In this document: piece by piece, positions 18,568-23,384 of the stretch
How the letters are laid out: each line of letters begins with the position of its first letter
How positions within the stretch are numbered: position 1 is the first letter of the stretch
Assembly (NCBI RefSeq): GCF_000949475.1
Contig: NZ_JRHC01000004.1
Coordinates: 124,001 to 188,000, forward strand
Direction of reading: 5' to 3'
Length of the DNA: 64,000 bases
Source: Draconibacterium sediminis
Lineage (GTDB): Bacteria; Bacteroidota; Bacteroidia; Bacteroidales; Prolixibacteraceae
Notes under the pieces: generated by a model
Told to the model about the DNA's origin: nothing
Seen by the model: the letters and a program-made list of their open reading frames with translations, nothing else
The model's database searches: none
Made by a program: the position numbers and the translations under genes

Positions 18568-21072
18568 ATGAGCAAGTATTATACATTGTTAAGTTTGTTG
18601 ATTCTTGTAGCGCTATCCTCAGGTGCACAAATGAAGAGTTACAATCAAAGCATAAAAGTTCCACCTCCGGTTTGTTACGGTTCCGGCGAAGTTGAAAGGG
18701 CTCGGATTGGGCCGCCTGTGGAATTTCTTCTGAAATCAGCCGGAGCAGCAAAAGCAGAAATAATTGTCGACTATAATGGTTTTACACCCGAAGCACAGGT
18801 GGCGTTCGCCTATGCTGTTAGCATTTGGGAAACGATTATTGAATCGGATATGCCCATACGGATGCAAGCCAACTGGGAGAACAATTTGGGAACGAATGTT
18901 CTGGGTAGTTGCGGTCCTGAGACCTATTACAAGGACTTTAAAGATGCTCCTTTTAAAGGTCGGTATTACCCGGTTGCCATAGCCGAAAAAATAGCCAAAA
19001 GAGAGATGAACGGAGAGAGCCGTTACGATATGATCGCCAATTTTAACAGCAACGTTGATTGGTACTACGGTACTGATATGAATTGCCCGGATACTCTCTA
19101 CGATCTGGTTACTGTTGTAATGCACGAAATTGGTCACGGGCTTGGTTTCACCGGCTTCTTTTTCGTCGATGATGCGGAGTCGCAAGGGGCCTATGGTTAT
19201 TACGAATTTGGTGATGCCACTTCTTTTGATTTGCTGGTAGAGCAAGGTGCTGCAGATGGCGAACAACTTGTAGATACATCATTTTTTGAGAATAAAAGTG
19301 CCGAACTTTTGAGTGCGCTACAATCAAGAAATCTGTATGCAAATAGTCCGATTGCAATGGAGCGTAACAGGGGAAATAAGCCCAGGCTTTATGCTCCCGA
19401 ATTTTTCGATGATGGTTCAAGTGTATATCACCTTAATGATAACACTTATCCGAATGGAAATGACAATTCATTGATGACTCATGCGATTGGCATGGCAGAA
19501 GCCATTCATGATCCGGGGCCACTTACTCGTGGAATAATGGACGATATTGGCTGGCGAAATATCTTTATTCGTTTCGATCAGGTAAAAGATATTGAGGAGA
19601 TAAAACCACTGGTTTTCAGCGGGTGGTTTGAAAGTGATTACGGTGTAAAAGCCGCCACGCCGAAACTCATTTATTCATTAGACGAATTTGTAAGCCATTC
19701 CGACACTCTTGAATTAATTGATATGGAAGGCGACGGAACGTACTCTGTAACTTATACTCCCGAAGCCGGTACCGATAAAATTTCTTATTATATTGAAGTT
19801 CAGGATACCATGAATCGTATGAGAACCGATCCTGCATTGGCGCCAACTGAATTCTATACTATTCATGTTGGTCCCGATACCGAAAAACCAGTTATTGCTC
19901 ATGATGAAATTGATTATTTCCTCTTAATAAATGAAGAGCAGCAACTATCCGCGAATATCAGCGACAATCTTGGTGTTGATACTGCGTACGTTCAATATTC
20001 TATCAATGGAGAAGCACAGGAACCCTTTGCATTAAAACGAGATTTTGATGATCGGTATATTGGCAATTTCCCATTCGATCTGAACACTCTGAAAGACGGA
20101 GATGAAATTACCTATGCAATATATGCTGTTGACGGAGCAAGCAGCCCGAATAGTGCAAGATTACCCGAAATACAAAAGATATCTTTCTCATTTAAAGTTG
20201 AAGAAATATTTGAGCCGGTTAGCTATTACAGTAATAACTTTAATCAGGAGACCCCTGATTTTGTAATTTCTGACTTTGATATTTATACGGCCGAGTTTTT
20301 TAACGATGGGGCGTTGCATAGTGTACATCCATATCCGGCTCCAAATAAAGATAACGAAGACCTGGAATTTTCTACTTTTCTGAAAAGGCCTGTGGTGTTA
20401 AAAGAAGGAGGGATCATGACTTTTGATGAAGTTGTTCTTATAGAACCCGGAGCGCAGCTATCGACTTATGGTGATAGCGATTTTTTCGACTATGTTATTG
20501 TTGAAGGAAGCAAAGATTTAGGTCGTACGTGGTATCCGCTGGCCGACGGTTATGATTCTTCATCCCAAAATACATGGCTAACCAACTATAATAGTGGAAT
20601 CCCAACTGGCGAACAGGATTCAGAAACCTTGGGAAAGGCTGAATGGTTTGTAACCCGTTCGATTACGCTAACCGATAACGATTATTGTGCGGCCGGTGAT
20701 ACTATTCTTATTCGTTTCCGGTTGTATTCCGACCCTTTCGCAGCAGGCTGGGGATGGGCAATCGATAATTTGGAGATTCAACGACCCGTGTCGGCCAATA
20801 TTACTTTGTTATCGCCGGGAGAGATTCTCGTTTATCCAAACCCGTTTACCGATAATGTTACGGTAAAAATTTCAGCTGTTCAACAGGAGTCGCAAATTCA
20901 AATCGATGTTTATAACGCTGTGGGGCAAAAAATATATGTTACACAAGAGCAGGGAGTAATTGGCACCTATTCGCATGAAATTAATCTCTCGCGATACGGA
21001 AATGGAATGTTCCTCGTAAAAGTGAGCCAAAACGGGCAAACAGTGCTGACTAAAAAGTTAATTAAAAACTAA
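18568..21072 (+). CDS. T9SS-exported putative zinc metalloprotease, paralogue of the preceding gene
   Basis: An 834-aa secreted protein with signal MSKYYTLLSLLILVALSSGAQ, zinc motif HEIGHGLGF (His186, Glu187, His190) and a C-terminal T9SS sorting tail (ILVYPNPFTDNVTVKIS to TVLTKKLIKN). Domain order matches the gene at 15850, and many segments are shared (MNCPDTLYDLVTVVMHE, AEAIHDPG, VQYSINGEAQEPF, FDEVVLIEPGAQ, AAGWGWAIDNLEIQ). It is therefore a tandem duplication that has diverged throughout. It has its own transcription unit: a strong terminator precedes it and a hairpin follows at 21077. The leader is short (about 90 bases) and has none of the ACAAACCC hairpins found in front of the first copy. 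Confidence 0.85.
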   Translation: MSKYYTLLSLLILVALSSGAQMKSYNQSIKVPPPVCYGSGEVERARIGPPVEFLLKSAGAAKAEIIVDYNGFTPEAQVAFAYAVSIWETIIESDMPIRMQANWENNLGTNVLGSCGPETYYKDFKDAPFKGRYYPVAIAEKIAKREMNGESRYDMIANFNSNVDWYYGTDMNCPDTLYDLVTVVMHEIGHGLGFTGFFFVDDAESQGAYGYYEFGDATSFDLLVEQGAADGEQLVDTSFFENKSAELLSALQSRNLYANSPIAMERNRGNKPRLYAPEFFDDGSSVYHLNDNTYPNGNDNSLMTHAIGMAEAIHDPGPLTRGIMDDIGWRNIFIRFDQVKDIEEIKPLVFSGWFESDYGVKAATPKLIYSLDEFVSHSDTLELIDMEGDGTYSVTYTPEAGTDKISYYIEVQDTMNRMRTDPALAPTEFYTIHVGPDTEKPVIAHDEIDYFLLINEEQQLSANISDNLGVDTAYVQYSINGEAQEPFALKRDFDDRYIGNFPFDLNTLKDGDEITYAIYAVDGASSPNSARLPEIQKISFSFKVEEIFEPVSYYSNNFNQETPDFVISDFDIYTAEFFNDGALHSVHPYPAPNKDNEDLEFSTFLKRPVVLKEGGIMTFDEVVLIEPGAQLSTYGDSDFFDYVIVEGSKDLGRTWYPLADGYDSSSQNTWLTNYNSGIPTGEQDSETLGKAEWFVTRSITLTDNDYCAAGDTILIRFRLYSDPFAAGWGWAIDNLEIQRPVSANITLLSPGEILVYPNPFTDNVTVKISAVQQESQIQIDVYNAVGQKIYVTQEQGVIGTYSHEINLSRYGNGMFLVKVSQNGQTVLTKKLIKN

Positions 21073-21140: not shown

Positions 21141-21148
21141 TATATTTG
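21141..21148 (+). promoter_or_regulatory. -7 box for the aromatic leader-tyrA transcript
   Basis: TATATTTG matches TAnnTTTG perfectly. Transcription should begin near 21154, about 13 bases before the leader-peptide ATG at 21167. The -33 region (about 21117-21121) is AT-rich without a clean TTTG. Confidence 0.6.
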
Positions 21149-21166
21149 TTGACAGAAATTAAAGAA

Positions 21167-21241
21167 ATGACAACAAAATTTAACAATAACTATTTCTACT
21201 TTTATTTTTATTATGGTTCTGAAAACGGGGTCAGGAAGTAG
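21167..21241 (+). CDS. Tyr/Phe-rich leader peptide of the tyrA operon
   Basis: A 24-codon frame reading MTTKFNNNYFYFYFYY followed by GSENGVRK and a TAG stop. Residues 9-16 are YFYFYFYY, five Tyr and three Phe in a row (codons 21191-21214). This is the hallmark of a transcription-attenuation leader that measures charged tRNA-Tyr and tRNA-Phe. It sits between a -7 box (21141) and a terminator (21272), and the next genes are tyrA and DAHP synthase/chorismate mutase, whose pathway makes exactly these amino acids. No homologue was searched. The idea that the peptide is translated only to regulate is inference from the design known in enterobacterial pheL, trpL and hisL. Confidence 0.85.
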   Translation: MTTKFNNNYFYFYFYYGSENGVRK

Positions 21242-21271
21242 GGTATTGTCTAAATTAAAGATATTTTACAG

Positions 21272-21305
21272 AAAGGTCTCGAAAAAATTCGGGACCTTTT
21301 TTTTT
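21272..21305 (+). terminator. Attenuator terminator in the tyrA leader
   Basis: AAAGGTCTCGAA (21272-21283) pairs with TTCGGGACCTTT (21288-21299), a 12-bp stem with one T-G pair and an AAAA loop, followed by T-run to 21305. It lies 30 bases after the leader-peptide stop and 36 bases before the tyrA start. A possible competing helix is TTCTGAAAA (21217-21225) with TTTTACAGAA (21264-21273, one bulged A). It overlaps only the base of the terminator stem, so the antiterminator remains uncertain. Confidence 0.85.
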
Positions 21306-21340: not shown

Positions 21341-22237
21341 ATGAAAACAACAGTAATAGGACTTGGATTAATTGGTGGATCAATTGCCCGCGATTTGCGA
21401 AAATCGGGTTTTGCCACCGAATTAATCGGGGTTGATGCCAGTGAAGAAAATGCTGCCAAGGCTCTGGAAATAGGGCTGGTTGACCGTATTGAAACACTGG
21501 AAAACGGGGTGAGAGATACCGACCTGGTTATTATTGCCATTCCGGTAAACAAGGAACTTGAGGTTTTGCCACAGGTGTTGGATACCATTAGCAGCGGAAC
21601 AACAGTAGCCGATATGGGATCGACAAAAAAAGTGATTGTTGATTTGGTGGCGAACCACAAAAGAAGAAAAAACTTTGTGCCGGGGCACCCCATGTCGGGA
21701 ACGGAAGACTCAGGCCCAACAGCGGCTTTGGAAGGATTGTTTAAAGGCAAAATTGCCATTCTGTGCGACCAGGAAGATTCAGGCCCGCAGCATGTGGCTT
21801 TAATTGAGAAGATGTTTCAGGTGCTGGGAATGGATATTGCTTATATGACATCGGATGAACAGGACCACAGCACCGCTTTTGTGTCGCATTTGCCGCACGC
21901 TGCTGCTTATGCGCTGGCCAATGCGGTTCAGGCAAAGGAGGATCGTAAAATTATTTTCGATTTGGCAAGTGGAGGTTTTCGTTCAACGGTTCGTTTGGCA
22001 AAGAGTTCGGCTACGATGTGGCACCCGATTTTTCAACAAAATCGTCAATACGTTGTTGAATCGCTGAACGTGTACATCAAACATCTTATTGAATTCCGCG
22101 ATTGTATGAAAAACAAGGAGGATGATAAAATGCTCGATCTGATTAACAATGCAAATAAAATCCGTGGAATTCTTGAAGGGAAGAATCCACATTTTCTGAA
22201 GAATGAAGAGAAATTGACAAAACTTTATACGAAATAA
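21341..22237 (+). CDS. tyrA: Prephenate dehydrogenase
   Basis: A 298-aa NAD(P)-dependent enzyme that converts prephenate to 4-hydroxyphenylpyruvate in tyrosine synthesis. The Rossmann motif is GLGLIGGSIA at the N-terminus. DLVIIAIPV and ADMGSTK follow, then the substrate-site block GHPMSGTEDSGP, with the HPMSG signature, and the DEQDHSTAFVSHLPH segment containing the catalytic His. No ACT domain is fused at the C-terminus, so allosteric control may be limited. The preceding leader region suggests control by attenuation instead. The next gene begins 2 bases after the stop, so the two are translationally close-coupled. Confidence 0.94.
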   Translation: MKTTVIGLGLIGGSIARDLRKSGFATELIGVDASEENAAKALEIGLVDRIETLENGVRDTDLVIIAIPVNKELEVLPQVLDTISSGTTVADMGSTKKVIVDLVANHKRRKNFVPGHPMSGTEDSGPTAALEGLFKGKIAILCDQEDSGPQHVALIEKMFQVLGMDIAYMTSDEQDHSTAFVSHLPHAAAYALANAVQAKEDRKIIFDLASGGFRSTVRLAKSSATMWHPIFQQNRQYVVESLNVYIKHLIEFRDCMKNKEDDKMLDLINNANKIRGILEGKNPHFLKNEEKLTKLYTK

Positions 22238-22239
22238 TC

Positions 22240-23331
22240 ATGACTTTAAAATTAGACATTAATCCGATTAAAGCGTGGATGCCAAATATCGACAATCCAC
22301 TGCTGATTTCAGGGCCATGTAGCCTTGAAACGGAAGAACAAACCATGGAAACTGCCCGTTTGCTGGCTAAAGACAAACGCGTATTTGTTTTTCGTGGTGG
22401 GGTTTGGAAACCCAGAACACGCCCGGGATCTTTTGAGGGTGTTGGATCGATCGGTTTAAAATGGCTGCAGCAGGTAAAAGAAGAAACCGGTTTGCCGGTG
22501 GGAACTGAGGTGGCCAACGCACAACACACCGAAGAGGCTTTAAAAGCCGGACTTGATGTATTGTGGATTGGAGCACGTTCTACTGCCAGCCCATTTGTGG
22601 TGCAGGAAATTGCCGATGTGGTGAAAGGAACGGATACCGTGGTAATGATTAAAAACCCGGTGAATCCTGATGTGCAACTATGGATGGGAGCAGTTGAGCG
22701 AATCCACCAGGCAGGTATTAAAAACATCGTGGGAATCCACCGTGGTTTTACGCCATTCCGCGAAACAAAATACCGCAACTACCCCAACTGGAAAACCTTT
22801 ATTGAGTTAAAGCGATTGCTGCCGAATTTACCTGTAATCTGCGATCCGAGCCACATTGCCGGAACACGCGAATACCTTTTCGAAATTTCGCAGAAAGCTT
22901 TTGATATGGGAATGGAAGGATTGATGGTTGAATCACACCGCGATCCGTCGTGTGCTTTGAGTGATGCCGGTCAGCAACTTACTCCTGCCGATCTTGGGAA
23001 AATGCTTGATAAATTGGTGATTCGTTACGAGAATGCAAGCAATCCTGAATTCGACAATCAACTGGATGTGTTGCGTAACCGAATTGATGCAATTGATGCC
23101 GAGTTGTTGGAAACACTGGCTTCGCGTGTGCAGATTGTTAAACAAATTGGTGAGTATAAACGCGACAATAACGTTACAGCGCTGCAGATAAACCGCTGGA
23201 CTCAGTTGATGGAAAACCGCGTAAAGCTTGGACAAAGTATGGACATAAATGAAACCTTTGTGAAAATACTATTTCAGTTGATTCACGAAGATTCGGTACG
23301 TATGCAAACCGAAATTATGGACCAGGAATAA
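22240..23331 (+). CDS. Bifunctional DAHP synthase / chorismate mutase (type II)
   Basis: A 363-aa fusion catalysing the first shikimate-pathway step and the branch-point step chorismate to prephenate. Residues about 1-255 are a class-I-beta-like DAHP synthase (SGPCSLETEEQ, FRGGVWKPRTRPGSFEGVG, WIGARSTASPFVVQEIAD, MIKNPVNP, HRGFTPF, CDPSHIAGTREY, EGLMVESHRDP). Residues about 270-350 are an AroQ-type chorismate mutase (LDVLRNRIDAIDAELLETLASRVQIVKQIGEYKR). It lies directly after tyrA, so the operon makes prephenate and carries it towards tyrosine. An intrinsic terminator follows at 23354. The fusion is common in Bacteroidota. Confidence 0.94.
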   Translation: MTLKLDINPIKAWMPNIDNPLLISGPCSLETEEQTMETARLLAKDKRVFVFRGGVWKPRTRPGSFEGVGSIGLKWLQQVKEETGLPVGTEVANAQHTEEALKAGLDVLWIGARSTASPFVVQEIADVVKGTDTVVMIKNPVNPDVQLWMGAVERIHQAGIKNIVGIHRGFTPFRETKYRNYPNWKTFIELKRLLPNLPVICDPSHIAGTREYLFEISQKAFDMGMEGLMVESHRDPSCALSDAGQQLTPADLGKMLDKLVIRYENASNPEFDNQLDVLRNRIDAIDAELLETLASRVQIVKQIGEYKRDNNVTALQINRWTQLMENRVKLGQSMDINETFVKILFQLIHEDSVRMQTEIMDQE

Positions 23332-23353
23332 AATTCTATTGGAAAAATGATAG

Positions 23354-23384
23354 AAAGCCTCGGGAGATTTACCGGGGCTTTTTT
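23354..23384 (+). terminator. Intrinsic terminator of the tyrA operon
   Basis: AAAGCCTCGG (23354-23363) pairs with CCGGGGCTTT (23372-23381) with one T-G pair. The T-run to 23384 overlaps the stop codon of the convergent rnpA gene (23383-23385). Confidence 0.88.

Follow-up and report, generated by a model that had tools for sequence, protein, structure and literature searches.

The leader that precedes tyrA in the window (the whole 64,000-nucleotide stretch of Draconibacterium sediminis DNA that was analysed) is very probably a ribosome-mediated transcription attenuator that senses tyrosine and phenylalanine, as judged from comparative sequence analysis, and the tyrA operon is most likely kept on only when these amino acids are short. 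The initial annotation of this region had proposed a classical attenuator layout, and the proposal is supported by a run of Tyr, Phe and Trp codons, by a conserved terminator and by mutually exclusive pairings that covary. The parts lie in the order given by that annotation, namely −7 box, leader open reading frame (ORF), terminator, tyrA and DAHP synthase/chorismate mutase (Table 1). Direct reading bore out the TATATTTG element at 21141–21148, which we take to be what is called a −7 box, and the 24-codon frame with YFYFYFYY at 21167–21241; Pfam searches confirmed the identities of the two downstream genes. The terminator, annotated as a 12-bp hairpin with a T-run at 21272–21305, was found as a stem spanning 21270–21301 with 14 pairs (G-T allowed), a 4-nt loop and a T-run at 21297–21305. 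The leader of the window folded better than its shuffled versions (0 of 200 folded equally well; z −3.1).

Table 1. Coordinates of the tyrA leader and the genes that follow it, in window positions.
Feature	Position	Strand	Sequence, partner or remark	Basis
−7 promoter box, Bacteroidota-type	21141..21148	+	TATATTTG	Direct reading; upstream motif conservation
Leader ORF	21167..21241	+	MTTKFNNNYFYFYFYYGSENGVRK then stop; 24 codons, ATG 21167, TAG 21239–21241	Read directly; orthologues
Regulatory codon run	21191..21214	+	YFYFYFYY	Direct reading; run columns of 60 aligned leaders
Arm 1	21183..21188	+	ACAATA, partner 21244–21249 (TATTGT); early-codon arm of the 1:2 hairpin	
Sequestering arm	21214..21221	+	TGGTTCTG, partner 21226–21233; would sequester antiterminator arm	
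Antiterminator 5′ arm	21226..21232	+	CGGGGTC, partner 21275–21281; within last leader ORF codons	
Inner antiterminator arm	21238..21247	+	GTAGGGTATT, partner 21260–21269; across leader stop codon	
Inner antiterminator 3′ arm	21260..21269	+	GATATTTTAC	Pairing counts, 60 leaders
Shared arm	21275..21281	+	GGTCTCG; antiterminator 3′ arm and terminator 5′ arm	
Intrinsic terminator and T-run	21270..21305	+		Terminator scan; pairing conservation
tyrA, prephenate dehydrogenase	21341..22237	+		Pfam PF02153/PF20463; NCBIfam NF006307 above cut-off
DAHP synthase/chorismate mutase type II, fused	22240..23331	+		Pfam PF00793 and PF01817 above cut-off

The genome that contains the window is 5.99 Mb in size, and its closest named tyrA record belongs to an uncultured Draconibacterium (97%), with records of the genome itself possibly outside the comparison. 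The gene upstream of the leader (18568–21072) encodes a protein with a secretion-system sorting domain. A second terminator-like hairpin lies at window positions 23352–23383, just 3′ of the DAHP synthase/chorismate mutase gene, and is consistent with a two-gene operon.

Both the Tyr/Phe run and the terminator are conserved in the aligned tyrA leaders of related genomes. We found tyrA in 87 of 120 relatives searched, with 69 strong matches from the same family, Prolixibacteraceae, including that of the window, and at all 69 of these loci a leader ORF and a hairpin preceded the gene. The family ORFs have 15–24 codons and a Tyr/Phe-rich run, broken up at one locus only (L059, FYRSSYYY), and each is followed by a hairpin that ends in a T-rich tail. 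A script requiring this tail identified the terminator in 64 loci; the other 5, whose stems contain mismatches (L055, L056, L057, L063 and L064), were judged by eye. Across 60 aligned leaders, 452 of the 474 run-column residues were Tyr, Phe or Trp, compared to 57 of 885 elsewhere in the ORFs; 48 leaders had a run made purely of these residues and 12 had some other residue in the run columns. Trp occurred somewhere in the leader at 34 of the 69 loci, and 31 of the run-column residues were Trp, encoded by TGG. The motif TANNTTTG was present within 60 nt 5′ of the leader start at 64 of 69 loci, compared to 65 of 2070 control windows, and in none of 64 stretches between the called terminator and tyrA. 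Named records gave a similar picture: at 38 loci with tyrA identity of at least 61% (L186–L222 and L230, the truncated L223 being excluded, and several being genomes that also appear under G handles), 33 passed the strict script and the other 5 were recognized by eye, L210 partly. The loci that passed include species of Maribellus, Mariniphaga, Sunxiuqinia, Mangrovibacterium, Gaoshiqia, Puteibacter and Prolixibacter.

At a few loci the end of the leader peptide has been lost and the RNA arm encoded there has been retained, after a frameshift that follows the run (L050) or with a stop codon placed before the arm (L066 and L071), and the 'GS..GI' ending found in many leader peptides seems to be a coding shadow of this arm. 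Such retention of the arm despite a moved frame or stop would also suit an attenuator that senses a ligand or a protein (a riboswitch, a T-box or a target of an RNA-binding protein) and in which the ORF is incidental. We consider this explanation highly improbable: no Rfam family, T-box included, matched at the gathering score across the whole window, the codon run matches the products of the operon, and runs of His, branched-chain and Cys codons precede hisG, ilvD/leuA and cysK, respectively.

We counted each named pairing in an alignment of 60 leaders (A1) as the percentage of cells paired, and reconstructed substitutions by Fitch parsimony on the tyrA tree. The terminator stem is the best kept pairing, with 97.2% of cells paired (slid partners 17–72%), both-side changes at 8 of 10 pairs, 21 double changes that preserved a pair and 15 changes by which pairing was gained or lost. 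A covarying antiterminator was found at 21226–21232 × 21275–21281. This outer helix was paired in 96.4% of cells, with both-side changes at 4 of 7 pairs, 5 pair-keeping double changes and 13 gains or losses of pairing. The clearest compensation is GGGGATC × GGTCCCC in Prolixibacter-type leaders versus CGGGATC × GGTCCCG elsewhere, with the terminator 3′ arm changing in step. The inner antiterminator helix (21238–21247 × 21260–21269) was paired in 83.7% of cells and showed 9 pair-keeping double changes. For the antiterminator as a whole, 89% of cells were paired compared to 35–53% for slid partners, a control that favors this structure because it was first drawn on the window. None of 500 shuffles reached its overall paired fraction; two of five measures were weak, the number of pairs with both-side changes being reached by 72 and that of further pair types by 34 of the 500 shuffles.

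The 1:2 hairpin was paired in 82.4% of cells overall (slid partners 39–54%). Within it, the arm 1 helix reached 91.4%, with both-side changes at 3 of 6 pairs, 7 pair-keeping double changes, including the replacement of A-U by G-C at one position of the helix on four branches of the tree, and 42 gains or losses of pairing; the middle helix reached 77.3%. The sequestering helix (21214–21221 × 21226–21233) was paired in 80.8% of cells, with both-side changes at 4 of 8 pairs and 4 pair-keeping double changes. The inner antiterminator and sequestering helices are loosely kept, as indicated by 90 and 75 changes, respectively, into or out of unpaired states. RNAalifold applied to A1 recovered the terminator alone, and the remaining helices had to be specified for counting.

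A different pairing, 21217–21225 × 21264–21273, had initially been put forward as the best antiterminator candidate, with the reservation that it overlaps the terminator by only a few bases. It can be drawn in the window and beats all 500 shuffles on cells paired, but it is paired in 60.1% of cells in the 60 leaders versus 96.4% for the outer helix described above, and may contribute weakly to the switch. The reservation falls away with the better antiterminator, which takes seven bases of the terminator 5′ arm.

The start codon of tyrA lies 13–40 nt 3′ of the terminator hairpin in 47 of 64 loci, a spacing that would suit a ribosome acting mainly on tyrA translation or RNA stability instead of termination, but the T-rich tail that follows the hairpin, the strong preservation of the terminator stem and the capture of seven of its bases by the rival helix make this reading highly unlikely. 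Equally slight is the chance that the hairpin terminates the upstream gene and that the short ORF is a fortuitous T-rich frame: the upstream gene ends 68 nt 5′ of the −7 box and the + strand terminator scan lists no terminator in the interval from that gene to the leader, but the −7 box stands 5′ of the leader at nearly all family loci, T-richness does not explain run columns so dominated by Tyr, Phe and Trp or the 31 TGG codons among them, and the alternative pairings are maintained by compensatory changes.

For the ribosome-mediated attenuator, the comparisons establish the layout, its conservation and the covariation in arm 1, in the outer antiterminator helix and in the terminator stem; the sequence of events that follows is what we infer. 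Transcription would start just 3′ of the −7 box, and the leader would be translated as RNA polymerase advances. A shortage of charged tRNA-Tyr or tRNA-Phe would stall the ribosome in the YFYFYFYY run, where it would mask arm 1 and, towards the end of the run, also the sequestering bases, and would leave 21226–21247 free to pair with 21260–21281; this pairing would capture the terminator 5′ arm and allow polymerase to continue into tyrA and the DAHP synthase/chorismate mutase gene. When tyrosine and phenylalanine are plentiful, the ribosome would proceed to the stop codon, where it would sit atop the antiterminator 5′ arms, and with these covered the terminator would form and transcription would end. 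In the window there are eleven bases between the last Tyr/Phe codon and the antiterminator arm, and the stop codon falls within the inner arm; the antiterminator 5′ arms (21226–21247) surround the stop codon at 21239–21241, a position that would fit a block by a ribosome at the end of the leader. The Trp codons in half of the relatives would suit DAHP synthase, which catalyzes the first step shared by the synthesis of all three aromatic amino acids.

We also folded 64 loci with a masked ribosome, using an assumed footprint of 12 nt from the first A-site base, and calculated how probable it is that upstream sequence holds the terminator 5′ arm. With the ribosome in the run, the mean probability was 0.91 and the value was at least 0.5 in 63 of 64 loci; with the ribosome at the stop codon, the mean was 0.30 and 15 of 64 loci reached at least 0.5. 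Without a ribosome, the mean was 0.63 and 42 of 64 loci still reached at least 0.5, and thus the folding does not clearly predict that an untranslated leader terminates by default. For the leader of the window (L001) the contrast was weak: the probability was 0.49–0.92 for a ribosome in the run, compared to 0.52 for one at the stop codon and 0.50 for the ribosome-free RNA.

A covariance model of the 1:2 hairpin plus the terminator fold (R1) gave a match at E ≤ 0.1 in 134 of the 140 family genomes and none in the other 6; in 125 genomes the E value was below 1e-5. We fetched 20 strong hits from genomes outside the model, and all 20 lie 10–168 nt 5′ of a tyrA match. Arm pairing was scored in 17 of these, the other 3 falling outside the scoring pattern, and all 17 form 6 or 7 pairs; the held-out genomes are relatives of the training set, and this test thus addresses the place of the structure and not its independence.

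Beyond the family, DAHP synthase matched 190 of 247 class genomes at E ≤ 1e-40, and we examined 72 loci, 12 from the order located through tyrA and 60 from the order and class located through DAHP synthase, approximately one per family. The strict script found 25 leader-terminator candidates on the forward strand in 21 of the 72 loci, none on the reverse strand and nothing in the remaining 51. The gene following a candidate encodes prephenate dehydratase, an aminotransferase, TyrA or DAHP synthase, as called by Pfam at L087, L095, L100 and L129 and by eye for the rest, with L093 ambiguous. For 20 of the 25 candidates, pairing between leader end and terminator arm beats 97% or more of the shuffles, a level that the other 5 do not reach; at L090, L119 and the first candidate of L143, the mean of swapped arms outscores the true arm. 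Tandem Tyr/Phe leader-terminator candidates were seen at L095, L096, L097 and L143, before aminotransferase or prephenate dehydratase genes. Among another 42 named loci, which lie outside the 38 named family loci and for which 1.5 kb or less of upstream sequence was available, a forward candidate appeared at 7 and a reverse candidate at 1 (L247), the only reverse-strand candidate among the 80 named loci.

Leaders were present at five of seven operons examined in the D. sediminis genome: tyrA, hisG, ilvD, leuA and trpE. A His leader, MTVTTLHHGHHWKNQPSGRL, with a terminator precedes hisG (L164, G000:C17:88884-89014) and also occurs in relatives. Branched-chain leaders precede ilvD (MRILSINIIVLLVVILGNTEKGH; L182, contig C17) and leuA (MTKNINISILNLLIGILLLTRQK; L293, contig C13), and in both the terminator arm matches the leader end. 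Two Trp leaders, MQKINTIWLPWWGLLT and MRTNNNIWWWHSNFLQIS, stand in tandem before trpE (L183, contig C1), and a terminator-like hairpin follows each; a simple pairing test gave no convincing antiterminator for them. In one relative, a leader with a Cys run, MNFIKINMCCCYRSTQRRL, and a terminator lies before the cysteine synthase gene cysK (L175, G046:C1:2786633-2786756). R1 gave weak hits (E about 0.001–0.005) to the hisG, ilvD and cysK leaders, including branched-chain ilvD leaders in two relatives and the Cys leader before cysK in one; some other weak hits are not leaders. At hisG, ilvD and cysK, an arm at the ORF end pairs with the terminator 5′ arm through 8–9 pairs, and leuA shows the same by eye.

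No leader was seen at the genome's own pheA, which has a −7 box near the gene start, at its aspartokinase-homoserine dehydrogenase gene or at two further HMGL-domain loci. Upstream of that aspartokinase-homoserine dehydrogenase gene (L292, contig C15), a gene judged by eye to be recA-like ends in four Thr codons, possibly by chance, and is followed by a terminator. A search of the same genome for Tyr/Phe runs gave 17 matches, two of them in the run of the window, and by eye the tyrA run was the only one in a leader (13 loci were inspected, and the remainder overlap those 13). A search for His runs gave 4 matches, located at two places that are not leaders; the hisG leader surfaced through R1. 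It is possible, if rather doubtful, that many amino-acid operons of the family share one RNA scaffold by common descent, with the codon run swapped. This idea, which covers the Tyr/Phe, His and branched-chain leaders, perhaps the Trp leaders and the Cys leader in one relative, draws on the presence of leaders at five of the seven operons, on the weak cross-hits of R1 and on the pairing between ORF end and terminator arm at hisG, ilvD, cysK and leuA.

Enterobacterial pheL, trpL and hisL are ribosome-mediated attenuators. Like them, the tyrA leader has an ORF rich in codons for the product, an early arm, an antiterminator and a terminator as alternative pairings, and then a biosynthetic operon. 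Unlike in those systems, its run alternates Tyr and Phe (with Trp too in relatives), and the final codons of its ORF contain the antiterminator arm, which pairs directly with the terminator 5′ arm. The tyrA leader matched no Rfam leader family at cut-off. Vitreschak et al. are said to have predicted phenylalanine and other amino-acid attenuators in 2004, with some Bacteroidetes/Chlorobi cases, by the same comparative logic. T-boxes bind tRNA directly and control aromatic genes by tRNA charging; T-box tyrosine leaders have control by tRNA charging in common with the proposed attenuator, and the window contains no T-box match.

Leader-peptide attenuation is not new to Bacteroidota: it has already been proposed for Flavobacterium psychrophilum, where the available text of one study speaks of 'strong clues' for such attenuation before amino-acid operons and describes conserved 5′ elements before pheA and hisG, with no Rfam hits according to its authors (PMC9723704). 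These elements share the phylum and the proposed mechanism with the tyrA leader and differ in family and gene (PMC9723704). A second source, in its available text, names T-box leaders for tyrosine genes and places phenylalanine under attenuators (PMC1262725). Our literature search, in which coverage of subscription papers was thin, found no paper on the leader of the tyrA-DAHP synthase operon and none on tyrosine codons in leader-peptide attenuation. On the basis of this search and of the T-box assignment of tyrosine genes in the available text of PMC1262725, an attenuator that reads Tyr codons seems unusual.

The tyrA leader suggests a logic for the aromatic pathway, in which the first enzyme is controlled by a single leader that reads Tyr and Phe and, in half of the relatives, also Trp. 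Ribosome-mediated attenuation requires a ribosome close behind RNA polymerase, and transcription-translation coupling is, to our knowledge, little studied in Bacteroidota. An attenuator that is conserved and whose elements are mapped to individual bases offers a direct test of such coupling in this phylum, and a single scaffold with swapped codons, if it exists, would mean that transcription and translation are tightly coupled in Bacteroidota.
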